From: Rubripirellula sp. | GTDB taxonomy: Bacteria > Planctomycetota > Planctomycetia > Pirellulales > Pirellulaceae | Length of the DNA: 33,114 nucleotides | Assembly: GCA_029245125.1 (NCBI GenBank) | Contig: JAQWPZ010000062.1 | Span: 1 to 33,114 of the forward strand | Direction of reading: 5' to 3' | In this document: positions 5,756 through 29,360 of the stretch, piece by piece | How positions within the stretch are numbered: position 1 is the stretch's first letter | Layout: each line of letters starts with the position of its first letter | Translations under genes and position numbers: made by a program | Notes under the pieces: generated by a model | The model's input: the letters and a program-made list of their open reading frames with translations, nothing else | The model's database searches: none | What the model was told of the DNA's origin: nothing

Positions 5756-8700
5756 ATGACTCTCCGTGACCCGAGTGTTCGCAACGGTATCAAAAAAGGC
5801 GATCGCAATCCGATCGACCGACTGCGTAGCAAACGTCGCCGTAAAGATCGGCGCTTGTTATCAGAAACGTTGGAGCAACGACAGCTTTTGGCTGGACCCG
5901 ACCTCGTCGGTATTCAGCAAAGAGCAGACGCATTGCTCAGCAGTGGAGAAGTCCTAAACACTCCGCCGCGTGAGCTGATCTTCCGTTTTGATGACAATTC
6001 TGATTTGGATCCGCTCACGCTCGCGAGCGGGATCAACATCACGAGGGCCGGTGACAACCGAAGCTTTGAATCAGCTTCGAGTATCACTGACTTCGGCACC
6101 GATGGCTCTGTGTTAGCGGAGTTCCGTTCGGCCGAAAGTGGCGTTCGTGGCAACGGCATTGAAGTTCGTCTTCGAAGCGAAGACCGTGGAACTGCGTCAC
6201 AGGCGGTTATCGTCACGGTCGATGATGCCAGGCAAATCGTCACGTTGGACCTGAACAACAACCCCAACCGCCCCTCGGTCGTGCGGGATTTGATCACTGC
6301 TGTTGCTAGTAGTCCTGCTGCGTCAGCTCTCATCGAAGTCGATCAGATTAGCGGGCCGTCTCTCGCACCCATCGGTCCATCCGTTGGTAGCGGTATCAAT
6401 GTTCTGTTGGATGGTGCGAACGCGGCACTTGCCGTAAGCGACTTGGGAACCAACAGTTCACTTCGTGCTCGTTTCACTGCAACGGTTAGCGGCGAGACCG
6501 GCGTCGGGACTTCCGTCTCCGTCAGCCGCGCGGATCTAGGCCTCGTGCCCGGACAGTTGCCGTTTGTTTCGGTTTCTGGCAGCTCCATTCAAGTTGTTCT
6601 CGATTCGACCGCTGGCCAAGAGTCGACCGCTGGCGATCTGATCGCAGCGTTGAACAACAATGCCGATTCGTCCCGCCTGTTGACTGCGAGACTGGAGGTT
6701 GGGTCCGAGTCGACTCCGCTTTTGAACACCCAGTTCTCACCACTCGTTTTGACGGGTGCGACCGATACCATTGTAAATCCAGGTTTCGTCGGCCTCGGTG
6801 ATACGCCTCACGAAGTGGTTTTCCGGTTCGCCGAAACACTGCCTCAGGACACCTACCAGATCGAGATCTTCGGAGCTGGTCCTCTGGCACTCCAGAATCT
6901 CGATGGTGAGTCTTTCAACAATGGTGTTGATTTTGGGACGAAGTTTTTGCTCGACAGTGCCCCGCAGGTTGCGGCAGTTGTGCCAGCACCGGTTCGTCGG
7001 GATGCAAATGGTTCGCTTAGCCCTGAATTGAACGTCATTGAGGTTTACCTGAATGAACAGGTGAGCAACGCTGAGGATCCAACCCTTTACGAATTGGTAT
7101 TCACACGCGATACCGTCAGCAACATCGATGATGTTGGATTTCATCCAGAACGCGTTTCCTTTGACCCCGTGTCACGGATTGCACGGTTGGAATTCGTGAA
7201 CGCGATGTCGCGTCTGCAGGACCCCGCTAATCCCGGTGAGTTTTTGACCGGTTCGGCACGACTGCGGATCGGGTCCGACCGTGCGATGCCTTCGGCACCA
7301 CAAGCAATCGATTTGACGCAAGAGCCCGGAGATTCTTTCGTCAACGCGGCTGACTCTGGGACGGACCCGAATCAACCTGGCAATGCGATCACGTTCACCG
7401 ACGCGATCAACGGTGTGGCCGGTGAAATCAAGTCATTGACAGTCAGCTCGACAATCGAAAATCCAACCGTGTACGGACTGGATTTCCCTGGCGGTGATGA
7501 AATGCCGGGTGTTCGGTCGATACGACCCGATGATCCATCGCGCCGAGATCGTACCGTCCCGCTTGATGTTTGGCGTGTGGATGGTGATCAGGAAGACGGG
7601 ATTTCAACCATCTTCTACGACTTCAAGGCCAACTGGCGTGGGGATGATCCAAATCGCGGGCTGTCGTTCGTGGCTGATCTGGACCAAACCTACTTCAACC
7701 TGATCACCGACGAGCAAAAGCAACGAGCGCGAGAAGTTCTGTCGCTTTACAGCGAGTATCTCGGTGTTCAGTTTGTGGAAACCGACGGAGTGCCGTTGGA
7801 TGATGCCGGAGAACCGTTGACCGAAAATCGATTCATTTCGATCGCGGTCGGTGAAATCTACGGTGCTGGAACCCAGCCGGTCGAAAACAGCGCCGTAGGC
7901 GGTATAACCGTAGCGACTCGTCCGCTGGATGATTTTGGCAACACGTATCTACATGATCAAGAATTTCTGGATACTGGCAACGAACTGCTGGTGATGGATT
8001 TCCAGGATTTTGATGAATCTACCGATGATCAAACGGGAGGAGAATTCTTCCGCGGTGCGATGCTCGGAATCGGCCAATTATTGGGTTACGGCTACGCTGA
8101 CCACCTGCCGCAACCGGTTACTCAAGCAACCGTATCAGTGTTGAATCCTGGTGATGACAATGAGCCGTCATTCCCAAGTCCCTCGGATATCGTCAACGGC
8201 CTGTATCTTTTGCGGCCTGAAAGTAATGACGTTGATCTGTACGAGTTCTCACTCGCACGTTCCGGCTCGATCAACATCCAAACGGTCGCTGAACGTCTCA
8301 GGAGCGCCAGTTCCCTCGACACAGCTTTGCGTTTGTACGAAGACATCGGTGATGGGAAATTCCAGGAAATCGCCGCGAACGATAATTACTTCAGCAGCGA
8401 TTCGTTGATCGAATTGGAGCTTTCGGCTGGGCGTTACGTGGTCGGTGTTAGTGCTACGGGCAACACCGTGTACGATCCGGCGATCAGTGGAAGCGGGATC
8501 GGCGGACGCACCGAAGGAGATTACGAGCTTCGGATCACTTTTGATGCGGATGGTGAACGTTCGATTGTTGATCAGTCGCAGATCGCACTCGATGGCGATG
8601 CGGATGGTGAAGCCGGTGGTGAATTTAACTTCTGGTTCATTCCATCCGATCCGACCCACACGGTTTACGTCGACAAAGCGTACACCGGCCCCCGCAGTGG

Positions 8701-11700
8701 GCAGTTGGGTATGTCGACCAATCCATTTGCCAATATCGATGATGCAATCGACAAGGCACAGCAGCAGATTGACGCTCAGACAGGTGATCTTGTCAAAAAG
8801 CAAGTTCGCATCGTCGGTGGCGGGACTTACCAAATCGGATTAGATAACCGAGCATTGCCGTTGTCCGATGGAGCCACATTGGATCTGCCACGCGGTGTCC
8901 AATTGGTCGTTGATGGCGGATCAACTTTCTTGATGCGTCGCAGTCGAATTGGTATCGGTAGTACAACCGAGGCATCGCAAACCGATCGCAGCGAAACATC
9001 GATCCAAGTTCTCGGCACCCCCGGTAATTCGGTCACGTTCACCAGTCAATCTGCTACTCCTCAAGGAGGCGACTGGGGTGGGATCGATATCCGAGGCGAT
9101 GTCGATACCAGAGATGACAGTCGAGTGAATCTTGAAGAAGCGGGTGTCTTCTTGAATCACATCCAATACGCTGACATGCAATTTGGCGGTGGTTCTGTCG
9201 CGGTCGATGGCCCTCAGGTCGTCGTCAGCCCGATCGAATTGGCTTCGGTACGCCCGACGATCATCAATAGCCGAATTTCGAACTCGGCTGATGCTGCCAT
9301 CGCGGCGACTCCGGACAGCCTTGCTGAGACCCGTTTTGATGAGCAGCGTTTCCAGGCAGCGGCCTCCTTTACTCCTGATGTCAAACGAATCGGGCCGCAC
9401 ATCCGTGGCAATGAAATCGTCGACAACAGCATCAACGGCTTGTTCATCCGGATCGAGACCCGAACCGGCGAAAATCTCGAGCAATTGAATGTGAGTGCTC
9501 GGATTGACGATACCGATATCGTGCACGTGTTGACGGAAAATCTGGCGATCGAGGGAAATCCCGGCGGTCCAAATGCCAGTATTGATGCTCCTGGTGCAAA
9601 CCTGATCCGATCTGCTGCGACTGGCATTGCAGGTTCGGTTCCGGCCGGTTTGTACCGATATCGAATGACTTTCGTCGATGCGAATGGTTATGAAACGGCG
9701 GCCAGCGACGAGTCGGTGATCGTCTCTGCCAGTGCGACCGGTTCAGTTCGTTTGACTGGTTTGCCGACTGTTCCTGCTGGTCAAGACTTGACCGGACGAA
9801 GGCTGTACCGTGCTACGTTAGACGCCAACGGTGATTCCGGTCCGTATCTGCAAGTTGCCCGGCTCAACACCAACGATCTGACGTTCGTTGATACGGCCGC
9901 GACTGGGACTGTGCCGATTGTGCCCAATAATGTTCAGATTGGACGTTTGAATCCGAGCCTGGTCATCGATCCAGGTGCCGTTGTTAAGCTTCGCGGCTCT
10001 CGAATTGATGTCACCTTCGGTAGCCATCTGTATGCCGAAGGTACCGAGGCAAAGCCGATTGTGTTGACGTCGCTGAATGACGCTCGTTACGGAGCGGGTG
10101 GTTCATTTGACACCAGCAGCACTGTTCAGCAAGGAACCACTGTCAATCCAGGTGATTGGGGTGGCGTTCATGTCGCCTACGGGGCCGCTGCGTCGTTCGA
10201 TCGCGTGACCTTGGCGGGTGGAGGCGGTTCGACCCGTATCGAGGGCGGTTTTGGGTCCTTCAATGTCATTGAAGCTCTGCAAGCCGACCTCCGCATCGCA
10301 AACAGTCGTCTCGAAATCAACGGAGACGGACGAAACTTTGTGAATGACCCGGATGATGTTCGTTCTGATCGCGTTGGCCGAGGCGACAACACGAGCGGCA
10401 CGATCTTCGTTCGTGCATCACAACCGGTCGTTCTGGACAACGAGTTTGTTGATAACACCGGGCCAGTGCTTACCTTCGACGTGAATAGCTTCACCTCGGA
10501 CGAAGTGATTGATGCTGGCCGCGCTACCGGAATGCTCGGGCGTGTGAGCGACCTGAATGGAAACTCCGGACCCATGATCGCCGGCAACCGCATCGGCACA
10601 ACACGACTGAACACGGTAGATCCGAACGATCCAACCAATCGGAATTTCAGCAGTAACGATGCCCTGCGGCAGAATGCTGTAGTCGACCAGAATGGCGATC
10701 CGATCTTCAGTTCCATCAACGGTTTGGAAGTCCGTGGTGGAAAGGTCGCAACCGAGTTGGTGATGGATGACGTCGACATCGTTCACGTCGTTCGTGACAC
10801 GATCGAGATCCCGAATCAGCACGTGTTGGGTGGCTTGCGACTGCAAAGCGACGCACGTGGCTCGTTGGTAATGAAGTTCCAAAGCCAGGACGCAGACGAT
10901 CCTGACACCTTGAACCGTCGCCAAGCAGGGATCGTTGCGGGCGGCACCTTGGTGACCTCCGAGGATGAATACATCGACATCGATGATCGCATCGGTGGCA
11001 GCCTGCAAATTGTCGGTCATCCTGATTTCCCTGTCGTGCTGACAGCATTGTCGGATGACACGGTGGGGGCAGGATTTACACCGAACGGCGAAGCAAACGT
11101 CGACACCGACAACAACGGTTTGCCGATTGGGCCGGACGGCTTGCCAATTCGGGATTTGACCAGCAACACCAGTGCTGCGGTGACGACTCCAGGTACCTGG
11201 GACGGAATCACCATCCGTGAAGCGGCTTCGGACGCCAATATCGCGATCACAAGTGAAACAGAGCCCGCAAACTTGGGTAATGTGCTCGTCAACGACACAA
11301 ACCCAATTCCGAGTCAGTCACAATTCCTTGGCGAGTTGGCTCCCGATCAATCCTCTGGCGACAATAATCGTCGACTTGGTTTCATCGTTGATGGCACCAT
11401 TGCAGAGTCGAGTGACCTCGACGTCTACTCCTTCATTGGTGAGGCCGGGGTAGAGATTTGGTTGGACATTGACCGCACGAATTCTCGCTTGGACACCGTC
11501 ATCGAATTGATTGACGCCAACGGCTTTGTGCGGGTCCTTTCTGATGACTCGTTGTCGGAGTCCAAAGGTGACACCGATCGCTTGATCGGTGAGGGTGGGT
11601 TCAATCCGACCGCCGCACGAGCGTTGAATCGTGAGTTGGTTGCACCAGGATCACCTGATGCTGACTTCCAAGACGACTATTCCACCAACTCGCGTGATGC

Positions 11701-14700
11701 AGGGATGCGATTGGTCCTGCCTGGTTCGATCGGGCAACGCTTCCTTTACCACGTGCGTGTTCGGAGTGCCAACAGCGACGTCTCCGGTGACAACTCCTTG
11801 GTCGATGCCGGTCAGTTGCGAGGTGGTTTGACGAGCGGTGCCTACCAAATGCAGATCCGTCTCGGCGAGACAGATGTGTTTGCCGGAACCCAAGTGCGAT
11901 TCAGCGATGTTCGCTTTGCGGTTAATGGTGTGCAAGTGATTGGTGGGCCGACACACAGTCCAATCGCTGCAGATGAGTTTGAGAAGCTGACGCCCAATGA
12001 AACGCTTGCTGATGCTCAACGGTTGGGTCTGTATGAAACTCAATTCGATGGCAGCACTCCGACAGGTGATAACCCGCTTCTGTTCCCTCGGCCGACTGGA
12101 ACGGATGTCGTGTTGGATAACCCCGCCAGCCCGCTTGCCAGCGACCGCTTGGCAAAGAGTGTTGGCGGGATCCTGGATGGCAGCACCGATGTTGACTGGT
12201 ATCAATTCACGGTCAACTACGAGCAACTGACGCGTGATGCGGCTCAGTTGTACCTGTCGACGATCTTCGATCTCGATTACGCCGACGGCGTTGCTCGCGC
12301 TGATACTGCCATCTACGTTTTCAATGACGCACGGCAGCTAGTGTTGTGGGGAACTGACAGCAACATCGCCGATGATCAGCCACCAGCCGCTACCGACTCC
12401 CAGGATTTGGTAGGTATCAGTGATTTGTCGAGAGGATCCTTTGGAACAAACGATCCGTTTATCGGTTCTGCTGAATTGAATGAAGGATCCTACTTCATTG
12501 CAATCAGCAACCAAGATAGCGTGCCCGAGCAATTGGGGCAGTTCTTTGACGCCGATGCCACGAACCCGTTGCTACGGGTTGAGCCTTTGGATTCCATTAA
12601 TCGAATTGTTGAAGATCACATTGAATTCTTCGGCGGTGGAACAGCATCGGATCCAGAAGTGCCGATCTTGTTCGGCAATGACGCTGTCGTTCCTTATTCA
12701 CTCGATGACGTCATGTTGTACGTGAATACCGGAACGAGGTTGCATGTTGTCAATCCATTCACTGGTGACACCTACGAGCCAGGCGGTTTGGGGAGCTTTG
12801 TCGGTACCGACGACAACGTCATTCGAGACGTTGCTTTCCGTGCGAACGGTGAGTTGTTTGGCTACACCGACAATGGTTCGGAAATTGGTGATGATTCCTC
12901 CGAGTATGTGAGGATCAACACCTTCGAGACTCCAGGGGCCGATGAGGTTAATCTGAACACCGTTGGTGTGATGGATATCGAAACGTTCCACTTGCAGAAT
13001 GTTGCTCCTGATAACGACCAATTGGATCAAGAAAGCGATGATGGGGTTCAGGTTGAAGGTATCTCGATTTCCGAATTGTTCGGTGAGGAGAGAGGCTTCT
13101 TTGTTGGCAACCGGCCAATTGACCGACTCGGTCTGAGCTACTTCGAGAATATTCTTTACCGCTTCGACGATGCGACCGGCGTCGTCGATGGGCCATCCTA
13201 CGATCGAGCTCGGTTCAATCCAGGTGCCGGCACAACACCGCGTGAAGTTGGCCAAATCGACACCGAGATCGTTTTGAACTCGCGTGCGACTCAACTCGGT
13301 ATCACAAATGCAACCGAGGTGGATCGAAACGGAGTTGCAACGCCGAGCTTGGTCGACGGTGATCGGTTCGTCTTGACGGATGTCACCAGTGCCGTGACCT
13401 TTGAGTTCGATCAAGGTTTCACGTTGGTCGCAAATGGTAATCAACCGGTTCGGGACGGCGATACGGTGACCGTTGATGGTGTTCTTTTTGAATTCAATAC
13501 CGGCCAAAGTCTGCAACTGAGCCCCGTCACACCAGCCGGATTCTTGAATCAGGGAACCACGGTCACGGTGGAGGGAACAGATAACGTTCCTGTGATTTTC
13601 GAGTTTGTTCGGTTCGGCTCGCCACAGGGAGACAACATTCCGATTTCGTTGGTCAATCTTGTTGGCACGACGCGGAATATTGACGCGATCGCTCAAGACT
13701 TGGCAAACGAAATTACCGCGAACGTAGAGGGAGTCACAGCTCAGTCACTTGGTGATGAAGTCTTTTTCGATGCGGCACCGGTCAGCTTGGGCGTCGATGG
13801 AACTGGGGTCACGATCGAGGGTAGTGAAGATAAGAACAATCCTTCAGCGATTGAAGTTCGTGTCAGCGAATCGACCAGTTCACAATCTTTGATTTCTGAA
13901 CTTGCCGATGTCATTCGCCGCGAAACGGACATCCCTGTTTCAGATGCCGGGACACAAGTCGCGTTCCCGACTGCAGTGAGCTTGGACGTCGATTCTCGCG
14001 CACTGACGCAGACGGGTGAGCCGGGTGTTGATGGTGACAATGTTGCTATCTTGTTGTTGCCTACTGATACGGTTGAAACGATCGGCGAGCGAATCGCGAT
14101 TGCTGTGAATCAAGCTTCCGACGAGGGGAAACTGAACAATGTTTCGGCCACTCCAAGCGGTCGTTCGCTGTCAATCGGTAATGGCTTTATCCTGAACGCG
14201 ACTGGCAATCTGACGGCTGGTGGGGTTCAGTTGGGCGGGCAGATCACCGGTATCGAGGTCGTGAATGACGCGATGTTTGCTGTCAGTGACCGTGGTGAAC
14301 TGTACCGAGTAGGTCCTGGTACTCTGCTCACTAATGGCAACCGTGAAATCGGAAACTATGTTGATACGGCGACGGATTTGGTCGGTATCAACTTTGAGGG
14401 TTTGCGTGCTGGTCCGGTGAGTCTCCAAAACGGGGCACTTAGCCAACTGCTGTTCGGGATTACCGGTTTTGGTGACATCCTGGCATTCAACACGCGTGGT
14501 GAATTGCAGCCGGTCTTCGCTGGCGGCCGTAGTCGGATTTCGACTGGCTTGTTTGGTGCTAGAGGATTGGATTTCAGTGTCGTTGATTTCAATATGTGGC
14601 ACGCGACGGGGACTCGGGGTGATGATCCGGGTCACGGCATCAATCCGCTCTTCAACAATGCTCGGCTTTCGAGTCAAGGTGGTACCAGTCTCGCGTTCAC

Positions 14701-20700: not shown

Positions 20701-21604
20701 CCTGCAGCCAGGATTCATCGCGAACTTCGAAATCAGCGTGTTCAATCAGGACAGTCGCCCATTCTTCTTGGATGCTTGGTTTGATTGGAATGGTAACGGT
20801 GTCTTCGGAGACCAAGCGAATGAAGTGCGACGATTCAATTCGTTATCTAGCTTCAGCGATCCTGACCCGGTTGATCCGAACGATCCGGCTGGGCCTGAAC
20901 GTAATGTCAACGTGGTCAGTGTCCCGGTTCCGGCAACCGCTGCAGCGGGTGAGATCTTCGCTCGATTCAGGTTGAGTGAGGAAGCGAATCTGGGCCCCAA
21001 TGGCGAAACCGACAGCGGAGAAGTCGAAGACATCAAATTGGTGGTGGGTAACAATCCATTCCAGAACCCCAATAATCGTTGGGATGTCAACGCCAGTAAC
21101 GCGGTGACGCCTCTGGATGCCTTGCTCATCATCAACTCCATCGATCGAAACGGTGGCAACATCTTGCTTGATTCGCCACCGATTCCAGCAGATCTGCCTC
21201 CTTTCCCAGACGTCAATGGTGACAGTCGCGTCACCCCAGCCGATGCATTGAATGTGATCAATCGCTTGGGTGACATCTTCGCTGCTGGCGAAGGTGAAAT
21301 GGTTGGCATGTCGGGTGGATCCTCCTTCATGCCGCTGGCTGGCGGCGTGATGGCATCTGATTCGACCTACCTTGGCGATTTGTTGATTGCTGAAAATCAG
21401 TCAGCAAATGCCGGTTCCGATTCGATTTCTACCTCGCAGGACAATGTGTCTGAGGTGGAATCATCCTCAGAGGCAGTGAGTGTGTTCGACAGTGCCCCAG
21501 TGGTCGCGGTTGACTCTCTTGTTGACTCGCTAGCGGAAGACACTGCGTCGATTCGCGAAGAGGACGAAACCAACGCCCTGGATCAGATGTTTGCTGACTT
21601 CTAA
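5756..21604 (+). CDS. Giant (5282-residue) LExRxLLA surface/matrix protein with pseudo-matrixin, beta-helix, GEVEDI and dockerin modules
   Basis: One uninterrupted frame of 15.8 kb. Residues 1-47: basic leader (KRRRKDRR) and signature LEQRQLLA (39-46), with no hydrophobic core. About 60-335: two divergent copies of a beta-rich module. About 618-785: matrixin-like domain whose zinc motif is replaced (GAMLGIGQLLGYGYAD at 767-782). About 809-935, 1862-2045 and 2072-2275: pre-peptidase C-terminal (PPC)-like beta domains. About 970-1850: right-handed beta-helix with recurring DWGGI, DWGGV and TWDGI turns (1106, 1467, 1814). About 2315-2480 and 2825-2965: propeller-like blades. About 3006-3160: lectin/MAM-like sandwich. 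About 3755-4170: second beta-helix. About 4395-4908: tandem FDG-type modules. 4920-5100: GEVEDI domain (GEVEDI at 5088). 5110-5175: dockerin type I pair. The C-terminus is acidic and lacks a membrane anchor or RTX nonapeptides. Likely extracellular, structural or adhesive; the function is not known. Domain names rest on motif recall. Confidence 0.95.
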   Translation: MTLRDPSVRNGIKKGDRNPIDRLRSKRRRKDRRLLSETLEQRQLLAGPDLVGIQQRADALLSSGEVLNTPPRELIFRFDDNSDLDPLTLASGINITRAGDNRSFESASSITDFGTDGSVLAEFRSAESGVRGNGIEVRLRSEDRGTASQAVIVTVDDARQIVTLDLNNNPNRPSVVRDLITAVASSPAASALIEVDQISGPSLAPIGPSVGSGINVLLDGANAALAVSDLGTNSSLRARFTATVSGETGVGTSVSVSRADLGLVPGQLPFVSVSGSSIQVVLDSTAGQESTAGDLIAALNNNADSSRLLTARLEVGSESTPLLNTQFSPLVLTGATDTIVNPGFVGLGDTPHEVVFRFAETLPQDTYQIEIFGAGPLALQNLDGESFNNGVDFGTKFLLDSAPQVAAVVPAPVRRDANGSLSPELNVIEVYLNEQVSNAEDPTLYELVFTRDTVSNIDDVGFHPERVSFDPVSRIARLEFVNAMSRLQDPANPGEFLTGSARLRIGSDRAMPSAPQAIDLTQEPGDSFVNAADSGTDPNQPGNAITFTDAINGVAGEIKSLTVSSTIENPTVYGLDFPGGDEMPGVRSIRPDDPSRRDRTVPLDVWRVDGDQEDGISTIFYDFKANWRGDDPNRGLSFVADLDQTYFNLITDEQKQRAREVLSLYSEYLGVQFVETDGVPLDDAGEPLTENRFISIAVGEIYGAGTQPVENSAVGGITVATRPLDDFGNTYLHDQEFLDTGNELLVMDFQDFDESTDDQTGGEFFRGAMLGIGQLLGYGYADHLPQPVTQATVSVLNPGDDNEPSFPSPSDIVNGLYLLRPESNDVDLYEFSLARSGSINIQTVAERLRSASSLDTALRLYEDIGDGKFQEIAANDNYFSSDSLIELELSAGRYVVGVSATGNTVYDPAISGSGIGGRTEGDYELRITFDADGERSIVDQSQIALDGDADGEAGGEFNFWFIPSDPTHTVYVDKAYTGPRSGQLGMSTNPFANIDDAIDKAQQQIDAQTGDLVKKQVRIVGGGTYQIGLDNRALPLSDGATLDLPRGVQLVVDGGSTFLMRRSRIGIGSTTEASQTDRSETSIQVLGTPGNSVTFTSQSATPQGGDWGGIDIRGDVDTRDDSRVNLEEAGVFLNHIQYADMQFGGGSVAVDGPQVVVSPIELASVRPTIINSRISNSADAAIAATPDSLAETRFDEQRFQAAASFTPDVKRIGPHIRGNEIVDNSINGLFIRIETRTGENLEQLNVSARIDDTDIVHVLTENLAIEGNPGGPNASIDAPGANLIRSAATGIAGSVPAGLYRYRMTFVDANGYETAASDESVIVSASATGSVRLTGLPTVPAGQDLTGRRLYRATLDANGDSGPYLQVARLNTNDLTFVDTAATGTVPIVPNNVQIGRLNPSLVIDPGAVVKLRGSRIDVTFGSHLYAEGTEAKPIVLTSLNDARYGAGGSFDTSSTVQQGTTVNPGDWGGVHVAYGAAASFDRVTLAGGGGSTRIEGGFGSFNVIEALQADLRIANSRLEINGDGRNFVNDPDDVRSDRVGRGDNTSGTIFVRASQPVVLDNEFVDNTGPVLTFDVNSFTSDEVIDAGRATGMLGRVSDLNGNSGPMIAGNRIGTTRLNTVDPNDPTNRNFSSNDALRQNAVVDQNGDPIFSSINGLEVRGGKVATELVMDDVDIVHVVRDTIEIPNQHVLGGLRLQSDARGSLVMKFQSQDADDPDTLNRRQAGIVAGGTLVTSEDEYIDIDDRIGGSLQIVGHPDFPVVLTALSDDTVGAGFTPNGEANVDTDNNGLPIGPDGLPIRDLTSNTSAAVTTPGTWDGITIREAASDANIAITSETEPANLGNVLVNDTNPIPSQSQFLGELAPDQSSGDNNRRLGFIVDGTIAESSDLDVYSFIGEAGVEIWLDIDRTNSRLDTVIELIDANGFVRVLSDDSLSESKGDTDRLIGEGGFNPTAARALNRELVAPGSPDADFQDDYSTNSRDAGMRLVLPGSIGQRFLYHVRVRSANSDVSGDNSLVDAGQLRGGLTSGAYQMQIRLGETDVFAGTQVRFSDVRFAVNGVQVIGGPTHSPIAADEFEKLTPNETLADAQRLGLYETQFDGSTPTGDNPLLFPRPTGTDVVLDNPASPLASDRLAKSVGGILDGSTDVDWYQFTVNYEQLTRDAAQLYLSTIFDLDYADGVARADTAIYVFNDARQLVLWGTDSNIADDQPPAATDSQDLVGISDLSRGSFGTNDPFIGSAELNEGSYFIAISNQDSVPEQLGQFFDADATNPLLRVEPLDSINRIVEDHIEFFGGGTASDPEVPILFGNDAVVPYSLDDVMLYVNTGTRLHVVNPFTGDTYEPGGLGSFVGTDDNVIRDVAFRANGELFGYTDNGSEIGDDSSEYVRINTFETPGADEVNLNTVGVMDIETFHLQNVAPDNDQLDQESDDGVQVEGISISELFGEERGFFVGNRPIDRLGLSYFENILYRFDDATGVVDGPSYDRARFNPGAGTTPREVGQIDTEIVLNSRATQLGITNATEVDRNGVATPSLVDGDRFVLTDVTSAVTFEFDQGFTLVANGNQPVRDGDTVTVDGVLFEFNTGQSLQLSPVTPAGFLNQGTTVTVEGTDNVPVIFEFVRFGSPQGDNIPISLVNLVGTTRNIDAIAQDLANEITANVEGVTAQSLGDEVFFDAAPVSLGVDGTGVTIEGSEDKNNPSAIEVRVSESTSSQSLISELADVIRRETDIPVSDAGTQVAFPTAVSLDVDSRALTQTGEPGVDGDNVAILLLPTDTVETIGERIAIAVNQASDEGKLNNVSATPSGRSLSIGNGFILNATGNLTAGGVQLGGQITGIEVVNDAMFAVSDRGELYRVGPGTLLTNGNREIGNYVDTATDLVGINFEGLRAGPVSLQNGALSQLLFGITGFGDILAFNTRGELQPVFAGGRSRISTGLFGARGLDFSVVDFNMWHATGTRGDDPGHGINPLFNNARLSSQGGTSLAFTYEDGAFGGLYPDPVERPTAEARLDGGGFENTFNVPGGTKGVIQSNAFSLEGYASDDLPTLYFNYFMETSAINGQDALRVYVTTSEGVEHLVATNNLELRDLVGDDEFDDPSPFLFPAYADPDDPFEADDIDVDVQQLYDTNGSVNSAWRQARVPLGEFAGKSGLSLRVEFSTQGTTATTSESLRVISGAALAKSDDLQFAIDGETFVIDLAPTISFPSGQVLAELYTAPNEAAIVTIDGQDYVLDDGARTITAPQISIDLLAANPGFALNELTANQIAETVALEIQGNLPPNPEFSGFDFSDPSDDPNVARGRNDLIFEATPLPYTGGNLTIIGSGRFGTVGDPAAPPTNVDDVDLQRLDVKAGAVIEVDLDLDSNPGLTSVVRFFDSNGDVLPSVTNPATNTVQLAVANDGVVYIGFSGRGNDTYDPRIAGSAQPGQVDTYQATVSITLQSAIRSDENLVEFFGAELGVAASPANLFTVTPSTGGGSNNRVSVSRFLTTSEVAFQVRRALANRFTRGDTAAIPIAGSTVRVAGFSIDDSGPFGSEDDRFQFSAGFLDAARENDFEGVYLDDFIIGFAERGEVVTSANPIDPNANFIADGANDFTLPVSPTQPTTTGAYQFEIRDGSEYVNSGLVTRGLGDAPAQFRTFDTNDRLTAGVTLQALPASGLLDGATFSVFDSFNQVNFEFDIADPEGNFNGLTDPGAVVIELTAEATANEVADAVINTLNSSSVQSVLDVEATRGNTTVTPDSGEARDFLDSTVNLYGEISFNEISPSFGEVTTFELRGDANRDRDEQGIILIENSRFLFNQENGVTITRDATANVLSSDAQDAFPSALTYPRNLIELNTEGLIPGVVVQNNVLAFNTLAGVAIEGLNGGGGALNNPVGYDQIVNNTLVGGLAEPGPDLGPQVFSGTLYERGGISFADQVVSVDLGGDVDGTFTNPLAALSSPDGFGQGPEPTDGTFTLSLGTGGEATFLFTDNFLTGNDSPAADLVIYETGASETVRVEVSRNGQDFFFVGNANGFDGMIDLDQFGFGSRERFSFVRLVDVVTPADEPTAAFGAAGADIDAIGALSTTPATLYTPAGDGIVVTQNSGPTLLNNVVANFATGVNVSLSAPGDVSRDRTVIGGSGYFNNVDNANGTDDASLGLAAQIIDSSEEIFVDASGLVFTPQHGASTIDSSIDSLQDRASLLTLRGAVGLPPVPIIAPSIDLNGQLRVDDPNVDTPPGVGARVFKDRGAEDRADSIGPRLSLIKPRGDDLLIDSGRVSSTGTVYNSFEIQLIDGITPADPSSGVGVDDGSVNGSLILLTRLQSGSNVTETLVEGVDYRFSYEPADNIIRLTPLAGIWQDNSVYTIEFLGNETGILQGQPGVRYADGALTEISLPNANPESVIRNLTEVDTGIGISISEEALSFDFFGFQFPNIEGQKLEVFDGHAVEPTVFHVTTDNANIDAILQADEVPVRVGESATAEQIASAVAEQINLSSVKLFATAVGNRIQLRDSVVKSSELFDVRGATAYFGADVILSEELTGTSIVGQSLVVFDGTSEQTFSLVTDLSQPVVGTPVLVSEAARLSEISDALGTAINDSGLLVDASVNGDRLELRGQLERADAKSSLAFARPVSLNGNPLNDAFKITDFSLDVELADTVAPFADGETVTIFDGTTEQTFEFDVDGAVNAGNTPVPVPFFASSQALLAALTNAVNNSGLQVQLVASSRSFRITGLANPIGVTSATGSVIVDGFGRIGTSPGFGLSIPADGADLSPAVEDGQSFTISRGPISVTFELDFDGVQDIPGSTLVPIFDGSLDGVANAVANSINQSQLGLVAQNVGGGDVTLTGLDTTNVSIDLRDTALTQVGIAGQSTPIPVVVPLDGSPSQIAGAFSEAFAKLAINQTLVGDRVLIEGAELIRGTSIVEDRISDEVGNQALFGELVIFIGGGYDYGDAPSPYTSTAEENGPRHLVDHDFALWRPDSSNPNDRPITEDENARLPDADEDNGVELVGALQPGFIANFEISVFNQDSRPFFLDAWFDWNGNGVFGDQANEVRRFNSLSSFSDPDPVDPNDPAGPERNVNVVSVPVPATAAAGEIFARFRLSEEANLGPNGETDSGEVEDIKLVVGNNPFQNPNNRWDVNASNAVTPLDALLIINSIDRNGGNILLDSPPIPADLPPFPDVNGDSRVTPADALNVINRLGDIFAAGEGEMVGMSGGSSFMPLAGGVMASDSTYLGDLLIAENQSANAGSDSISTSQDNVSEVESSSEAVSVFDSAPVVAVDSLVDSLAEDTASIREEDETNALDQMFADF
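18970..20480 (+). repeat. Tandem array of about 110-residue 'FDG...TFEFD' modules in the giant protein
   Basis: Four consecutive modules each begin with a short beta motif: LEVFDGHAV (nt 18986), LVVFDGTSE (19316), VTIFDGTTE (19667) and FTISRGPIS (20009). Spacings between equivalent codons are 330, 351 and 342 nt, so units are 110-117 residues. Each continues with TF-hydrophobic-Asp, a proline/valine strand (VPVRV, TPVLVS, VPVPFF, LVPIFD), an alanine-rich helix (IASAVAEQIN, ISDALGTAIN, LLAALTNAVN, VANAVANSIN) and a final strand (GNRIQL, GDRLEL, SRSFRITGL, GGDVTLTGL). A shorter fifth unit follows at about 20285. Divergent relatives occur earlier in the protein (about 13350-13790, 15270-15560, 16680-16960). 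The copies are diverged at the DNA level, pointing to old duplication. Confidence 0.8.
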
Positions 21605-21961: not shown

Positions 21962-24478
21962 ATGTCTCTTCCTCTTCTAATCTGCCAAATGCTGCGAAGA
22001 AAACCAAAGCGAATTCGACGTCGGTTCCGGCCGATTCGTGTTGAGAGACTGGAAAATCGCCAGTTATTAGCGGCCGACAGTATTGGGGTAACCCCCATCG
22101 ATAACGCTGAATTCATGCTGGGAAACGTCGTTGTGACGCCAGTGCTCTTCGAAAGCGATGGCAGAATCGATGCGAGTACGCAAGATTGGGACATTGCGGG
22201 GGGCGAGATCGATCAGGTCATTGGTCGAATCACCGAGGGGGCCAACTGGTGGTCGACGACGTTAGATGGGCTTGAAACCAATCATGAGTTGAATTTCACG
22301 GTTGATGAGACGTTTGCTCAATCACCGTTTGAGATCCCGTACGAACCGATTGAAGGTAGTAGCGAAGTCTTCTCATTGTGGGTCGGCGATTTCTTGCAGT
22401 CCAACGGATACGGCGTTGGTCAGGCAATGAGCGTCAGCGAGAACTTGGAAGGTGCGGTTCGCGAATTCAATCACGACCAGCGAATCAAGCATGATGCGGA
22501 TTGGTCGTTCACGATCTTTGTGGTCGACTCGTCGGATGATTTCACTGGTCTTTTCAAAGCTGGCCGTTTTCGTGGCGCTTTCGCGTTTGCTGGTGGACTC
22601 TTTATCGTCGCCCCGTCCACCCGACCTGCTTCGACGATGGCCCATGAAATGGGGCACATGTTCTGGGCCCGCGATGAGTATTCAAACAACATTCCGTGGG
22701 ATGCAACTCGGGGCTATTACGACGCACAGAACTACAACGCCATCAGCAACGATACGCCTGGGTTTGTTCAGGATATCAGTATTATGCGGGGTGGTTCCGC
22801 TTTGGCAGAGGCTTATAGCACTCACTACAGTGCGGAAGCGTCACTGGCTCAAATCGGTTGGCGTGATAGCGATGGTGACGGTATTTTTGACCTCGCTGAT
22901 GTGCCGCTCGATCTGCAGGGTAGCGGCTACTTCGATGCATCGACTTCGACATATCGGTTCGTTGGATCAGCCTCTGCCGTGCCGCTGATGAATCAGAATT
23001 CATCGGGACCACAAAGCGACATGACCCTCAATCGCGTCCGTCGGTTGGAGTACCGATTGGATGAGGGGCCATGGCTGCTAGCAGCTGAGCCGAATGGGCA
23101 GGTTGTGATGATTGATGAGACGGTTTCGATTGCTCAGTCCTTCGATGAAATCCATTGGCGTGTAGTTGACGACCAAGTTGGTGTCACCAGCGCGACGATC
23201 TCAGGCACATCGACTCTGCCTGCGTTTTCGTCGTCTAGTATCACCGGGGTCTCCTTTTTAGATGAGGACCAAGATGGCCAGCGCGGCGAAGCGGAAGTCA
23301 CGCTGGAAAATACTAGTTTGATGCTCACTCGAGCAGATGGTTCACCGCTGTTTGGTGGCGAATTAGATGCCGCTGGATTCAGTGCTGGCGGGTTGCCCGG
23401 TGGTAGCGGTGCAACTTTAACTGCTGCGGGGAGTGGAACTAACGGTGAAGTCGGTGTGCAGGCATTAGCATCCGATGACACAACGCAAGCGTTTCATTGG
23501 TGGGACACCGCTGAACTCACTTGGAGAGGGGGTTGGTCAGACGATGTCAAGTTTGAAACGGTCTTCAACGAACCTGTAGGTCAGGTCACGTTTTCGGCAT
23601 CGGTAACCGACCAAGCAGGTTTCCTGAGGGTGGAGGCCTACGATGCTGGTGGGCAGTTTCTCCATCGCGTAACCAGCCCTGAGATCAACTCAGGTCTCGA
23701 TTCGCAAGTAACGATTAACGATCCTTCGGGACGGATTGCCAAGGTCAGAGCCTTCGGGCACGCGGGGACGGAAGTACTCCTGACCCAGCTGGACTTTGGA
23801 TTCCGAGATGAGGTGGTCGTTCTTGCCGGGGGCGGCTTCCAGTTTGAAGATCTTCCCGATGGAGGGTACCAAATCGAACTGACTTCCGAGAATGTCATTC
23901 ATCAATACGATTCCAACCCCGTCTCGATCGAAGTTGTCGGTGGGGCAAGCTCCATCGTGCTAGCGGCAGCTCAGCGAGTGGATAGCATTCGCTATAACGC
24001 TTTGAACCAATACGACACCAACGGAGATGGCTCGATATCGTCTCGCGATGCCTTGGTCGTGATAAACGATATGGATCGATATGGCTCACGTCGCTTGTTG
24101 GCGGGTGAAGTAGAGGGATTTAAAGTCGACACCACGAATGATGGATTTGTCACTGCGGTGGATGCCCTCGTCGTGATTAACCAACTTGCCCGTCAGGGTG
24201 AGGCAGAAGGTATGGGCGGGGCGAGTGGCGAACAGATTGGCGGCTCATTTGCCTTTTCGATGGGGGCGTCCTTTCGTTTGGAGCTGTTCGGCGACAGTCT
24301 TCAGGCCGGCGGGGAAGCTGGAATAGCACCAGAGAGTGGCTCAGACGGCAAGATTGCCAGTTTTTTAGATCATCCAGGCACCGTGCTGGGCTCGGGGGCG
24401 AGTTCATCGGAATTGCTAGAATCAACCGACTCTGACTCTTCTGATTTATCGGAACCTTTTCTCCAATCGTTCGTCTAA
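21962..24478 (+). CDS. LExRxLLA dockerin protein with HExxH zinc metalloprotease domain
   Basis: 838 residues. N-terminus: highly basic RRKPKRIRRRFRP, then signature LENRQLLA (30-37), without a hydrophobic core. The catalytic domain (about 45-330) carries HEMGHMFWARDEY with H228, E229 and H232; D238 or E239 probably supplies the third zinc ligand, a layout recalling M64-type HExxH...DEY peptidases. A Met-turn-like SIMRG (M275) and an Asp-rich, calcium-binding-like DSDGDGIFD (302-310) follow. About 420-660: SdrD-B/carboxypeptidase-regulatory-like fold (ITGVSFLDEDQDGQRGEAE at about 425) apparently split by an inserted beta-sandwich, resuming at FQFEDLPDGGYQIEL. 685-745: two dockerin type I loops (DTNGDGSISSRD, DTTNDGFVTAVD). 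The tail is Ser/Asp-rich. ATG 21962 is used; ATG 21989 (MLRRKPK) is a good alternative, since the basic leader starts there. Probably secreted; the substrate is unknown. Confidence 0.93.
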   Translation: MSLPLLICQMLRRKPKRIRRRFRPIRVERLENRQLLAADSIGVTPIDNAEFMLGNVVVTPVLFESDGRIDASTQDWDIAGGEIDQVIGRITEGANWWSTTLDGLETNHELNFTVDETFAQSPFEIPYEPIEGSSEVFSLWVGDFLQSNGYGVGQAMSVSENLEGAVREFNHDQRIKHDADWSFTIFVVDSSDDFTGLFKAGRFRGAFAFAGGLFIVAPSTRPASTMAHEMGHMFWARDEYSNNIPWDATRGYYDAQNYNAISNDTPGFVQDISIMRGGSALAEAYSTHYSAEASLAQIGWRDSDGDGIFDLADVPLDLQGSGYFDASTSTYRFVGSASAVPLMNQNSSGPQSDMTLNRVRRLEYRLDEGPWLLAAEPNGQVVMIDETVSIAQSFDEIHWRVVDDQVGVTSATISGTSTLPAFSSSSITGVSFLDEDQDGQRGEAEVTLENTSLMLTRADGSPLFGGELDAAGFSAGGLPGGSGATLTAAGSGTNGEVGVQALASDDTTQAFHWWDTAELTWRGGWSDDVKFETVFNEPVGQVTFSASVTDQAGFLRVEAYDAGGQFLHRVTSPEINSGLDSQVTINDPSGRIAKVRAFGHAGTEVLLTQLDFGFRDEVVVLAGGGFQFEDLPDGGYQIELTSENVIHQYDSNPVSIEVVGGASSIVLAAAQRVDSIRYNALNQYDTNGDGSISSRDALVVINDMDRYGSRRLLAGEVEGFKVDTTNDGFVTAVDALVVINQLARQGEAEGMGGASGEQIGGSFAFSMGASFRLELFGDSLQAGGEAGIAPESGSDGKIASFLDHPGTVLGSGASSSELLESTDSDSSDLSEPFLQSFV

Positions 24479-24549: not shown

Positions 24550-24668
24550 ATGTGCAATGGGCAGAGTTTGGCTTTCGCGTTGTTTTTGCGAGGGATGTCT
24601 GTCCGGCCCGCGGGGTTTCAATACTTTTCCTCCCCGTCCTTCCACTGCAATTTCTCGAGAAATATCAG

Positions 24669-27600
24669 ATGAAAGATTTGCGTCAACTAGTTCGTCGCTC
24701 AGGATTACTAGCTTCCGGCAAGCGGCGACGACGTGCCTTGGACAGCCGACGTGCGGACGCAATGAACCGTCGGTTGCGGAGTGAGACGCTGGAGAAGCGG
24801 AATTTGCTTGCCGGAGGGATTTTGGCCAGTCAAAACTTCAATCCCTACGATGTAAATGACGACGGGATGATCAGCGTTCGGGACGCGCTCGGTGTCGTTA
24901 ACTTCTTGTCTCGCGGCCAAGGTGCTGAGGGTGAGCAGGGTGGACTGACCAGCAGTGGCAATGGCTCATCTGGGTTCCATTACGACGTCAACGGTGACTC
25001 TGAGATCACAGCTTCGGACGCCTTGGGAGTCGTCAACGCTCTGGCTCGGGCCGAAGGGCAACCGTCAGTCACGCCGATCGACATCACGTTGAGCGAAGAC
25101 GATCCGCCGAATGTATTCAATTTGCTGCAGGGTCAAGCGGCGGTGTCTGGCACATTGACCGGCGTACGAGTGAAGGAAATTACGATCGACGGCGATATCA
25201 ATGTCGTTACCAATGATGCCCTGATTTTGTTGGGTGGTTTCAACCCTGGCGCCCCTCTCCCGCAGGATCTAACTGCGACAGGCAATCCGCCTCAGCTTTT
25301 GGGCAGAGTGACACCGGAGGTTTTTTCTGAGCTCAACGAAGGTGAAAGCTCGACCATCAAAATCGTTTATGACGTCGTCGAGTCGAGTGGTGACTTTAGC
25401 GAAAACACTGCCACTATCTTGATCGAAGGGGTGACGGATAAGGAAGTTGAGTATCTGCTCACCGTTCGTGATTTGAACGACGACGAGATCGTCCCAGTGG
25501 ATGGGGTTGTTAGCGTTGGAGTCGACCAGGAGGTTTACCTGCAGGTTGCCTATGAAGACTTGCGGTCTGCAAGCCTTGGCACCGACATTGGTGCGTTTCA
25601 ATTGATCACGAACCTGACGTTTGACAACGCCAGTTTGATCACGCCAGTGCTTTACGAGTCGCAGAAGATCGAAATCAACGGCTTCTTCAATAGGAACGAA
25701 AACGGTGTTCGTTTCTCGATCCCAGATCCGGCACCAGTGCAGAACCCGGGACCTCTTGTTTACGAAAAACTCGCCGGGCAATTGGGAGAGAACGACCTTG
25801 CTGATCTGCTAACCGAGGCGCTGGATCAGTTCGGGTATGATCCCTCTCAGTATCGAATTGATGGGGATGGCAGTGCACAGCGGGTGACCTTCATTGGGCT
25901 GGGCAATCAAAATGTACCTGATATCACGTTTGAGGTACTGGATTCCAGCGGTAATCCAGACACCAGCGGCTTTGTTTCTGGCGAAGTGACCGTGACTCCC
26001 GCGATGCTGCCAGATGGTTCGCCTAATTCTGATGCAGTGCCATATAGCATCGATTTCCGAAGTAACTCGTTCGACAATAATCCAGTTGGCTTTGGCGAGG
26101 CCTTCTACAAAATCTTGCTCTCCGGAGACGGTGGTAGTTACGACCCGGATGCGGGAGGCGTGAATCAAGGTGGCTTCGTTGCAGTCGGCGGTTTGGGAGG
26201 AATTCCAGGTCAAGGTGGCGGGATTCCAGAGCTAGGTGAGTTTGGTGAGCCATTTGATTCGTTCAGCTTGAAGGTGAAAGTTAACGCACCGGAAGTTGAT
26301 GTGATGGCATCAATCGCAGCCGCATCGACGGAGAATGAGTTTCTTCTGCTTTACGGTTACGACAATCAACGTATCGCCGAGAACGTCCTGGCCGAAACCG
26401 TAGAGGGTGGCTTGGGGCAAGAATTGGATAACCCTAATAACGGTGTTGCGACACTAACGCTCAGCACCAAAACGCCGAACGAATTGCCGATCGTCACCAA
26501 TGAGGTCGAGGCAACTTTCGCCGAGACTGATGCACAGGGCAGCGTTGATTTGTTGCAATTTGCCAGTGACCCGGATGGCGATGATGCAGCTCTGAGTGTT
26601 GCTGGACTCACACTCGAATCAGGAAATGGCGTCGGCATTACACAGAATGGTAACACTCTGGCCGTTGATCCATCGAGCTATCGATTCTTGAACGACAATG
26701 AGTCCGAAGTTGTGATTTACAACTACGACGTGGTCGACGTGCGAGGAGGAACGGTCGCGCAGAAAGCGACCATCACCATTACGGGTGTCACCGATCCAAA
26801 TCTAAGACCGTCCATCGAACTGGATCAGTCCTTCACGATTCCCGAGAATACGACAGCACCTGCTCCAGTCGGAACGGTTGTCGCAAGCGATCCTGATGAG
26901 GGTGACACGTTGACCTACTCGATTGTCAGTGGGAACAGCGGGGAAGCCTTCGAGATCGACCCGGCGTCGGGTGAGTTGCGAGTGAAAACCAATTCAGCGA
27001 TCGATTTTGAGACCAACCCAACGTTCGACTTGGGGATTCGGGTTGCTGATAACGGTGGTTTGACCGACACGCAAGTCGTGGTGGTCAATCTGACCAACGT
27101 CGATGAGAGTCCAGTCATCGAAGATCAGAGCTTCAGCGTGAACGAAACAGCTCCGCAAGGTACTGTGTTCGGAACCATCGCAGCGACCGATCCAGAAAAC
27201 GCGACGTTGACGTTTACGGTAACCGATGGCGAGAACGGACAAGTTATCAGTATCTCGGAAGCGGGTGTGCTGAGCGTCGCGACAGCTCAGTTGGTCCCCA
27301 ATGCTCAGGTCGTCTTTACCGTTCAGGTCTCAGATGGAGCAAATTCTGATTCGGCAACGATCACAGTGAACGTGACCGATGTTCCTCAGCCTCCAACGGT
27401 CAACGATCAGACATTCGATGTCGACGAAAACTCCGCTGTCGATACTCCTGTCGGAACGGTTGTGGCCAATGATCCGGATGGCGATTCCCTCACCTATGTG
27501 ATCACTGACGGCAATGCGGACGGTGCTTTTGGAATCAACGCAAATACTGGTGCCATTGCTGTCGCGGGCACGCTCGATTTTGAAGTTCAGTCGAGTTACA

Positions 27601-29360
27601 CCCTAACGGTTCGTGTCAGCGATCCGGGCGGACTGAACGATACCGCAACAATCACCATCAACGTTAATGATCTAAACGAAGATCCGACCGTTGAGGACCA
27701 GACGTTCTCGGTTGCAGAGAACGTCCCGAACGGCACCGTCGTGGGGTCGATTGAGGCAAGCGATCCGGATAATGGTACTAGCCTGGTCTACACCGCTACC
27801 AGCGGAACTGGGCAAGCTGTCTTTGCCGTTAATTCTGAAAATGGTGAAATCACAACCACCGGGCCTCTCGATTTCGAAATCGAGAATCAATATGCCCTCA
27901 ATGTGACCGTCTCGGACGGTGCTCTCAGTGATACAGCAGTGATCACGATCAATGTCACCAATGTCAATGAAGCTCCAATCGCTGGTGAGCCGATCGAAGC
28001 GTCCTTCAGCGAACAAACCACCCCAGGGTTGGTTGACCTGTTGGCTGGTTCCAGTGATCCAGACGGAGACGATTTGTCCGTTGCCGAGTTGAAGGTTGAG
28101 AGTGGGAATGCTGGAGGAATTACGCCGATCGGAAATTCTCTGAGGGTCGATCCAACGTTCTACGGATACTTGCTGGACGGCGAAATTGAAACGGTGAGAT
28201 ACAGTTTCCTGATCGAGGATCCTGCTGGTGCGTCTGCTGCTCAAACAGCAACGATTTTGATCATCGGTTTCAATGATCCACCTAACGCAGGCGACATCAA
28301 TCGCATTGCAGTGGTTGATCAAGTCGTTGTCATCGATGTCTTAGAAGACAATGATGCCGGTGACGGCGAGGGGGATACGGATTCCATCAGCTTGCAGAGT
28401 GCGACACTGACCAGCGACTCTGCAAACGTAGAGGATTTCAGTTTCGACCCAGCGACCGGAAAGGTTACGATCGAACCGGCACTGGACTTTGAAGGGAAAG
28501 TGACCTTCTCATACACGATTGTCGATCAGCAAGGGAAAACAGCCACAGCGGTAGGAGAGGTGAACTACCTCAGGTTTGTGCCGTCCACGATCAGCGGCTT
28601 GGTCTTTGAGGACCATCTCGAAAATGGAATCGAAGTCGCGATGAATGGTGCTGACGAGATTCGCAACGGTGTCAAGGATATTGATGAAGTCGGGTTCGCA
28701 GGGCTGACGGTCGAACTCTTCTCCGCAGCGAGCGAAAATGTCACCGGCGAAGAGATTCAAATGTCAACCCAGACGGATCTCGATGGATCCTACAGTTTTG
28801 ATTCTTTGCCACCCGGCGATTTCCACTTGCAGTTGGTGGATCCGCCAGGAGTCGATTTGATTGGAGATGATGATCGTGTGGTGGCATTCAGAGGGACCAC
28901 GGGGGGAGTTCTGAAGGTTTCCACTGTTCAAAACCAGATTGATCAGACTGTGACCATCGACGGGCCTTTTGGTGATCAAGATATCACCGGAATCGACTGG
29001 CATGTTGTCAGTAAGGGCCGAGCTCTCGATACCAATAATCTTCTGTCATCGAATTACGATAACCTGGACGAACACGGTAATCCCAAGGGTGCGTTTGCTC
29101 TGCTGGATAAGGACGGCAACCAAGTCTTTGTCGGAGTCACTGGTGGCTTCGCCGGAGTCGATATGGTGACCGTTACCTACGACAAAGCGAATGATGAAGC
29201 GTTGCTTGAGGTTCTGGATGAGGGGCAAGTTCAAAGCCGGATCTTGGCCGAGGATGAGTATGAGTTGGCTGAGGGAGATAAGATCCAGGTCTTTGGTGGT
29301 CTTGACGATCTCTTTCCAGGCTCCAACGATGATGGCGGCGATCTGTTGAGTTCGTCCTGA
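24669..29360 (+). CDS. LExRxLLA cadherin-repeat protein with N-terminal dockerin and possible cohesin-like module
   Basis: 1563 residues from ATG 24669; a longer frame from a GTG at 24552 is rejected because it puts unrelated sequence before the signature. Basic leader (KRRRRALDSRR), then LEKRNLLA (41-48). Dockerin type I loops follow at once (DVNDDGMISVRD at 61, DVNGDSEITASD at 106). About 125-260: beta-rich module ending in ILIEGVTD. About 262-540: cohesin-like beta domain (VGVDQEVYLQVAYEDL, GAFQLITNLTFD near 308). About 614-706 and 1111-1205: duplicated Ig-like module. 719, 819, 913 and 1010: starts of four cadherin repeats with PEN/DEN, DPD, DFE and N-x-N linker motifs. About 1215-1300: tandem-95-like domain. 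About 1306-1400: SdrD-B domain. The tail is acidic with a Ser-rich end. Expected to be an extracellular, calcium-stiffened adhesin or matrix protein; its ligand is unknown. Confidence 0.94.
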   Translation: MKDLRQLVRRSGLLASGKRRRRALDSRRADAMNRRLRSETLEKRNLLAGGILASQNFNPYDVNDDGMISVRDALGVVNFLSRGQGAEGEQGGLTSSGNGSSGFHYDVNGDSEITASDALGVVNALARAEGQPSVTPIDITLSEDDPPNVFNLLQGQAAVSGTLTGVRVKEITIDGDINVVTNDALILLGGFNPGAPLPQDLTATGNPPQLLGRVTPEVFSELNEGESSTIKIVYDVVESSGDFSENTATILIEGVTDKEVEYLLTVRDLNDDEIVPVDGVVSVGVDQEVYLQVAYEDLRSASLGTDIGAFQLITNLTFDNASLITPVLYESQKIEINGFFNRNENGVRFSIPDPAPVQNPGPLVYEKLAGQLGENDLADLLTEALDQFGYDPSQYRIDGDGSAQRVTFIGLGNQNVPDITFEVLDSSGNPDTSGFVSGEVTVTPAMLPDGSPNSDAVPYSIDFRSNSFDNNPVGFGEAFYKILLSGDGGSYDPDAGGVNQGGFVAVGGLGGIPGQGGGIPELGEFGEPFDSFSLKVKVNAPEVDVMASIAAASTENEFLLLYGYDNQRIAENVLAETVEGGLGQELDNPNNGVATLTLSTKTPNELPIVTNEVEATFAETDAQGSVDLLQFASDPDGDDAALSVAGLTLESGNGVGITQNGNTLAVDPSSYRFLNDNESEVVIYNYDVVDVRGGTVAQKATITITGVTDPNLRPSIELDQSFTIPENTTAPAPVGTVVASDPDEGDTLTYSIVSGNSGEAFEIDPASGELRVKTNSAIDFETNPTFDLGIRVADNGGLTDTQVVVVNLTNVDESPVIEDQSFSVNETAPQGTVFGTIAATDPENATLTFTVTDGENGQVISISEAGVLSVATAQLVPNAQVVFTVQVSDGANSDSATITVNVTDVPQPPTVNDQTFDVDENSAVDTPVGTVVANDPDGDSLTYVITDGNADGAFGINANTGAIAVAGTLDFEVQSSYTLTVRVSDPGGLNDTATITINVNDLNEDPTVEDQTFSVAENVPNGTVVGSIEASDPDNGTSLVYTATSGTGQAVFAVNSENGEITTTGPLDFEIENQYALNVTVSDGALSDTAVITINVTNVNEAPIAGEPIEASFSEQTTPGLVDLLAGSSDPDGDDLSVAELKVESGNAGGITPIGNSLRVDPTFYGYLLDGEIETVRYSFLIEDPAGASAAQTATILIIGFNDPPNAGDINRIAVVDQVVVIDVLEDNDAGDGEGDTDSISLQSATLTSDSANVEDFSFDPATGKVTIEPALDFEGKVTFSYTIVDQQGKTATAVGEVNYLRFVPSTISGLVFEDHLENGIEVAMNGADEIRNGVKDIDEVGFAGLTVELFSAASENVTGEEIQMSTQTDLDGSYSFDSLPPGDFHLQLVDPPGVDLIGDDDRVVAFRGTTGGVLKVSTVQNQIDQTVTIDGPFGDQDITGIDWHVVSKGRALDTNNLLSSNYDNLDEHGNPKGAFALLDKDGNQVFVGVTGGFAGVDMVTVTYDKANDEALLEVLDEGQVQSRILAEDEYELAEGDKIQVFGGLDDLFPGSNDDGGDLLSSS
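26823..27980 (+). repeat. Four tandem cadherin repeats
   Basis: The repeats start at nt 26823, 27123, 27405 and 27696, each opening DQ(S/T)F; periods are 100, 94 and 97 residues. Each has an acidic PEN/NET/DEN/AEN strand, a VGTVxASDPD-type calcium motif, and an (A/V)xD or VSD strand before a linker. The third and fourth keep the LDFE motif; the second has LVPNAQ instead and may bind calcium less well. Confidence 0.85.

Follow-up and report, generated by a model that had tools for sequence, protein, structure and literature searches.

The closest described system is the planctosome, a hypothetical planctomycete complex in which an adaptor bearing both a dockerin and a cohesin holds zinc peptidases that have dockerins of their own; it was proposed for the Nemodlikiaceae and includes cohesin modules and a lamin-tail anchor (PMC6461901). 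The motif PF07595 (Planc_extracel) has been termed a planctomycete cell surface signal peptide in a later paper, which credits it to Studholme et al., 2004 (PMC8567305). Planctomycete giants of more than 5000 aa with adhesion-type domains have been listed by their size and domains (PMC7717043; PMC5177795). For Stieleria, a published table gives 0 or 1 cohesin per genome (PMC9692418), which fits a dockerin partner that has gone unrecognized.

The window analyzed here corresponds to the complete contig C32 (33,114 bases) of a draft genome that totals 7.06 Mb over 334 contigs; a Rubripirellula MAG, with a B of 87% identity, is the closest named relative that was found. ORF calling places three consecutive genes, A, B, and C, on the + strand (Table 1), with a photolyase, GlyRS and a TPR protein before A (Pfam/NCBIfam annotation) and a gene of 121 aa, pyruvate kinase, an SDR and xylose isomerase (XylA) behind C. 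Behind its dockerins, C carries a predicted cohesin-like domain of a family that we refer to as PCL (planctomycete cohesin-like), a label coined in the present analysis; this domain was overlooked by an earlier, sequence-only reading of the same DNA and is the most informative part of the locus. We regard it as an evenly balanced proposition that A, B and C are one secreted, calcium-dependent cohesin-dockerin surface assembly, with C as the scaffoldin or adaptor.

Similar to the peptidases of the planctosome, B is a dockerin-bearing predicted zinc peptidase with an invariant HExxH. With a dockerin and a PCL domain in one protein, C would be built like a scaffoldin of the adaptor type and resemble the planctosome adaptor, but its cohesin-like domain lies outside Pfam cohesin and carries an insert, and in contrast to the planctosome a giant protein belongs to the conserved trio (PMC6461901). 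Protein A shares its size and adhesion-type domains with the planctomycete giants, for which conserved neighbors are not described in the available parts of the two reports (PMC7717043; PMC5177795). Type I dockerins are also found with cellulosome scaffoldins (PF00963, PF00404), and C likewise joins a dockerin to a domain that appears cohesin-like. In contrast to a cellulosome, for which several cohesins and carbohydrate-active dockerin enzymes are the criterion, the trio has no match to a carbohydrate-active domain or to PF00963, C has one cohesin-like domain, and the cargo is a protease, a giant and a rod. PF07595, cohesin-dockerin pairing and the "planctosome" were known already; the PCL domain with its 166-residue insert behind the dockerins of C is new, and we found no account of the A-B-C trio or of PCL in the open-access literature.

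Table 1. Features of the A-B-C locus (positions in the 33,114-base window).
Feature	Position	Strand	Description
Gene A	5756..21604	+	PF07595 leader, degenerate metzincin-like domain, PPC, GEVED, dockerin, conserved C-terminal tail
Planc_extracel leader motif of A (LEQRQLLA)	5846..5896	+	28.4 bits
Metzincin-like domain of A, HExxH lost (AMLGIGQLLGYGYADHLP)	7595..8155	+	limits approximate
PPC domain of A, below cut-off	8228..8455	+	22.9 bits vs cut-off 25.9
GEVED domain of A	20768..21031	+	37.8 bits
Dockerin of A	21083..21268	+	40.6 bits
Gene B	21962..24478	+	838 aa; PF07595-like leader, predicted metalloprotease, beta-rich region, dockerin
Leader motif of B (LENRQLLA)	22028..22078	+	21.1 bits, under PF07595 cut-off
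Active-site motif of B, HEMGHMFWARDEY	22643..22681	+	HExxH...DEY
Dockerin of B	24011..24187	+	44.1 bits
Gene C	24552..29360	+	1602 aa from 24552; leader, dockerin repeats, cohesin-like domain, cadherin/Big_9 rod, SdrD_B domain
Planc_extracel leader motif of C (LEKRNLLA)	24768..24821	+	31.5 bits
Dockerin of C, two repeats	24846..25043	+	42.4 bits
Conserved PCL domain of C with insert	25425..26471	+	profile comparison
Insert within PCL domain of C	25665..26162	+	166 residues
Cadherin/Big_9 array of C	26472..28565	+	Pfam
Small gene behind C	29399..29764	+	121 aa; possible fourth member

The sequence-only reading had described three adjacent genes with a basic leader, an LExRxLLA signature and dockerins, and this description is borne out: each signature stands behind a basic stretch, and all three proteins match PF07595 and the type I dockerin family Dockerin_1 (PF00404). 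The dockerins of A, B and C score above the curated cut-off of 22.9 bits, and the PF07595 cut-off of 25.5 bits is passed near the N-terminus by A and C, with B below it; no other difference from the known extracellular motif was seen. In further scans PF07595 scored 25.6 bits in C, 22.6 bits in B and 24.9 bits in A, for which the protein submitted was a piece of 1250 aa. The same genome contains 29 PF07595 matches at E<=10, 10 of which exceed the cut-off; its 24 dockerin matches fall in 23 reading frames. As 14 of these 23 frames also match PF07595 (E<=10; paired by contig and frame length), the combination of leader and dockerin is ordinary in this genome, and LExRxLLA was rejected as a mark of the trio, the signature being that of PF07595 and spread genome-wide. 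It is the conserved adjacency of the genes, not the leader with the dockerin, that exceeds chance.

Outside its own genome, B was matched at more than 100 bits in at least 51 places, and the flanks were compared at 47 (G004 and G007, on contigs of 3–5 kb, as well as G055 and G060, were left out of the tally). Three of these loci are from outside the family, with a match limited to the catalytic part, so that 44 loci were counted, 39 of which have a downstream ORF of at least 250 aa. Among the B matches listed, A is directly upstream at 32 of the 44 family loci, a C-type gene is directly downstream at 28 of the 39, and the order A-B-C is present at 26 of the 39, in 13 genera (14/14 in the genus, 12/25 in other genera). 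A neighborhood that is not conserved across the Pirellulaceae had been named beforehand as grounds for giving up a common function, and the gene order is conserved. Within the genus this proves little, since GlyRS, TPR, pyruvate kinase and SDR are for the most part conserved there as well. Five other genera (G049, G046, G042, G029, and G044) keep A-B-C with no photolyase, GlyRS, TPR, pyruvate kinase, SDR or XylA within up to six ORFs per side, and mere background synteny was rejected as the source of the order on this ground. In one of the five (G042), A is broken into three frames; likewise, A occupies three frames upstream of B and C in Rhodopirellula baltica BR-MGV (L134), which may reflect sequence error or decay.

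At the named loci, which are partly on the same contigs as those of the tally, A is upstream of B in 33/33 and C is present in 22/29. The seven without C behind B belong to R. rubra, Aporhodopirellula aestuarii, R. solitaria, Neorhodopirellula pilleata, R. europaea, R. sallentina and the MAG UBA2972; a hidden C with a plain PCL domain was excluded at these loci, as neither the C-domain model nor the PCL model matches any ORF there. The durable core is the pair A-B, and several Rhodopirellula-type genomes are without C. The persistence of the trio in many related genera, cultured ones such as Rubripirellula obstinata and Stieleria included, suggests, short of proof, that A, B and C build one cell-surface complex. 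The earlier proposal of one functional unit is partly supported and is strengthened by the conserved order; the leader, being genome-wide, does not speak for it, and the durable core comprises A and B only. A promoter and terminator scan of 21400–25000 gave about as many sites as shuffled sequence.

The ORF of A extends over 5753..21604 and comprises 5283 aa when counted from the TTG at 5753, with an ATG at 5756. Protein A had been called a pseudoprotease with beta-helices. The first term is apt, because the metzincin-like HExxH is degenerate in the window; in an alignment of this A with 24 upstream A frames of more than 4500 aa, the motif is degenerate in 24 of the 25 full-length orthologues and intact in genome G029 alone (HEIGHLLGLGH, L075). 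Since the G029 protein keeps this motif, the dead domain probably descends from an active metzincin. The beta-helices found no Pfam support at E<=0.1. A conserved tail at 21422–21604 ends the protein (SVFD...LFA.L at the stop), with SVFD present in 21 of the 25 C-termini, and this tail might be a second signal for sorting or assembly. Restriction of A to the trio locus was ruled out, as A-type sequence occurs in at least 61 of 98 genomes (E<=1e-20), often in multiple copies. The genome of the window itself has a second A-type giant on contig C307 (3–23377; L181 and L182), of 5363 aa, with a degenerate protease site and cut by the contig end; next to it, downstream, lies a further giant with a dockerin (2251 aa). 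In at least eight genomes (e.g., G001, G003, and G012) two A-type giants lie ~16–18 kb apart.

The constancy of A directly before B at all named loci, including those of Rhodopirellula, Aporhodopirellula and Neorhodopirellula that are without C, would also be expected if the core consisted of A and B only, with B maturing the giant A or the dead domain of A regulating B, and with C as a lineage-specific neighbor. That A keeps a protease-like domain without an active site is in line with such a pair. We consider this explanation unlikely: among the matches listed, 12 of the 44 B loci are without A directly upstream and in G058 an A-like giant and B are on different contigs, and the A-type giant of C307 stands without B on a contig of 26.8 kb, where the contig cuts the gene.

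For the three-protein assembly, B would supply proteolysis. It had been described as an active-looking protease, in agreement with which H, E, H, D, E, and Y of its active-site motif are invariant in alignments of 13 and of 23 sequences. M64 peptidases have HExxH, followed by D-E-Y. Protein B shares this motif with HExxH...DEY (M64-like) metallopeptidases, but family models of M6 and M64 are not passed: M6-type models score far under their cut-offs and Pfam M64 gave no match at E<=0.1. Sequences related to the catalytic part come from Chloroflexi, Elusimicrobia and archaeal MAGs; the part itself matches no Pfam or NCBIfam family above cut-off, as is also the case for two of the Chloroflexi relatives, and no PDB chain by sequence. 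The end of B matches PDB chains named "Cellulosomal scaffoldin" (4wi0, E 2e-4; 4u3s, E 3e-4), which we take to be X-module-dockerin pairs. The structure model of B has a pLDDT of 80.

The true start of C is probably the ATG at 24669, because C orthologues begin M(K/R)NLR.LL. The cadherin rods ascribed to C by the sequence-only reading were recovered as cadherin and Big_9 arrays by Pfam. A model of the C domain matches once in the genome of the window and, at E<=0.001, in 32 of 98 genomes, some of which are counted on a partial match or on a match within A. Relatives of its insert are present near residue 2200 in 13 of the 25 A proteins, the A of the window being without one. In G044, the C-domain model matches the C gene as two pieces, with the insert skipped. 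An unfiltered search of 14 genes that hold the C position in other genera gave a PCL match with E below 0.02 for 11 of them. Comparison of the C domain profile with PCL gave 94% over 56 columns, and 97% over 155 columns when the insert columns were omitted (E 2e-11, an uncalibrated E of a single comparison; hhalign with 17 of the 18 rows of the insert-free C profile). As controls in the same comparison, the cadherin array of C gave 0.1% and the insert 0.7%.

The relation of the C domain to cohesin is less direct. A scan of 22 C sequences with the Pfam cohesin PF00963 gave no match at E<=10, and comparison of the C domain with a set of classical cohesins (12 of 16 PF00963 matches) gave 0.2%, or 0.3% without the bridge and with the insert omitted. 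The model of C residues 92–640 has a mean pLDDT of 70, and its Foldseek search returned unspecific Ig/cadherin-type matches (rmsd 17–48) with no cohesin among the best 50 listed. As these direct Pfam, profile and fold tests are negative or uninformative, intermediate sequences are needed to link C to cohesin. One such sequence is L193, a PF00963 match outside the family Pirellulaceae that resembles the start of the C domain and gave 43% when compared with it alone. A search seeded with L193 led to the PCL family, in 41 of 98 genomes at E<=0.01, and the profile of the resulting alignment (A5; 29 of 30 loci drawn from a longer match list, with L223 left out as too short) matches at least 68 of 98 genomes at E<=1e-5.

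At 5 of 42 cohesin loci (L193, L254, L256, L259, and L269) the same DNA is matched by PF00963 over its cut-off and by PCL, the latter with E-values of 1.4e-5 to 3.5e-25 when the bridge row L195 is left out; the reversed control for PCL gave 0 hits in 720 segments. The other 37 cohesin loci were missed by PCL at E<=1e-4, one of these having an E of 0.015, and the cohesin set compared with PCL without the bridges gave 14%. Conversely, PF00963 is matched by just 5 of 29 PCL rows at E<=10, and of ten rows scanned singly one was over the cut-off. The PCL profile matched no PDB chain at E<=1.

Dockerins are common in the Pirellulaceae (54 of 61 genomes, with at least 51 matches in the richest, among the matches listed) and Pfam cohesins are rare (4 of 37 family genomes, 3 over cut-off; none in the genome of the window), and most of these dockerins therefore had no recognized partner. 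PCL is a concrete candidate for this partner. Among the matches listed, PCL is present in 54/54 family genomes with dockerins and in 0/7 without (Fisher 2e-9; 7e-8 for the 39 genomes of other genera; relatedness uncorrected), and Big_9 is still present in six of the seven that have neither. Outside the family, 13 genomes have both, 12 have dockerins only, 1 has PCL only and 11 have neither, again among the matches listed; two of the 12 (G066 and G068) have PF00963 cohesins. The co-occurrence is not independent, because both modules often sit in one protein, and PCL copy number does not single out dockerins (rho 0.65, vs. 0.73 with Big_9, among the matches listed), so that the match between PCL and dockerins is support, not proof.

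If PCL pairs with dockerins, the giant surface protein, the protease and the rod protein would be parts of one defined complex. In this assembly, which would be secreted, calcium-dependent and located on the Pirellulaceae surface, C would act as a divergent scaffoldin or adaptor: its dockerin would plug into the PCL domain of a different protein or of a second C, its PCL domain may accept a dockerin such as the one on protease B or giant A, and its cadherin/Big_9 array would form the rod. Protein A would be a giant body with a dead protease domain. The computed basis consists of the domain anatomy, the adjacency, the homology of the C domain to PCL, the PCL/cohesin overlap at five loci and the presence and absence of PCL and dockerins; from these we infer secretion, calcium dependence, PCL-dockerin binding and the binding pairs, as well as a role of the complex in adhesion or degradation.

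Three other proteins of the same genome carry PCL. The protein on contig C31 (11034–16109; L233) has 1,691 residues, with a leader, a weak matrixin/reprolysin match, two PCL domains (107 and 58.5 bits) and a dockerin, and PCL frames of ~1,600–1,760 aa recur in many genomes among the matches listed. On C319 (32899–37779; L244), a PF07595 leader is followed by a cyclophilin-type prolyl isomerase, PCL and cadherin-like repeats; this protein is perhaps a folding helper of the same system. The protein on C236 combines PCL with a dockerin. Given these proteins, PCL-dockerin pairing could be real with the C31 or C319 protein as the scaffold, in which case A, B and C would be dockerin cargo, adjacent for shared regulation; the 166-residue insert could moreover abolish binding by the PCL domain of C. 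We judge this rather improbable: from genus to genus, genes at the C position retain the domain behind the dockerins, whether or not it contains the insert, an argument for its importance in C.

Hardly more than a one-in-several prospect is that A, B and C are unrelated secreted proteins in an old gene order, with dockerin and PCL as generic, non-binding modules: the failed direct cohesin profile tests, the unspecific fold search, the tracking of Big_9 by PCL copies and the 12 outside genomes with dockerins and no PCL (among the matches listed) agree with it, but the order A-B-C is kept in five genera where the six checked neighbors were not seen, and PCL and dockerin presence agree over the 61 family genomes while Big_9 persists in 6/7 lacking both (among the matches listed).

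Beyond the single assembly with C as scaffoldin or adaptor, we tentatively put forward a wider reading that we hold to be somewhat doubtful. The Pirellulaceae may have a lineage-wide, non-cellulosomal system in which PCL is the missing dockerin partner; C, being both plug and socket, could polymerize head to tail into fibers carrying A and B, and the insert might give private specificity.

The small gene behind C, a possible fourth member of the locus, is without any match in Pfam and NCBIfam scans. Its copies in most relatives begin MH.I.LR.PW. Among the 22 named loci that have C, a number of which are truncated soon past C, 15 show this gene behind C, and it is also present in some other genera.
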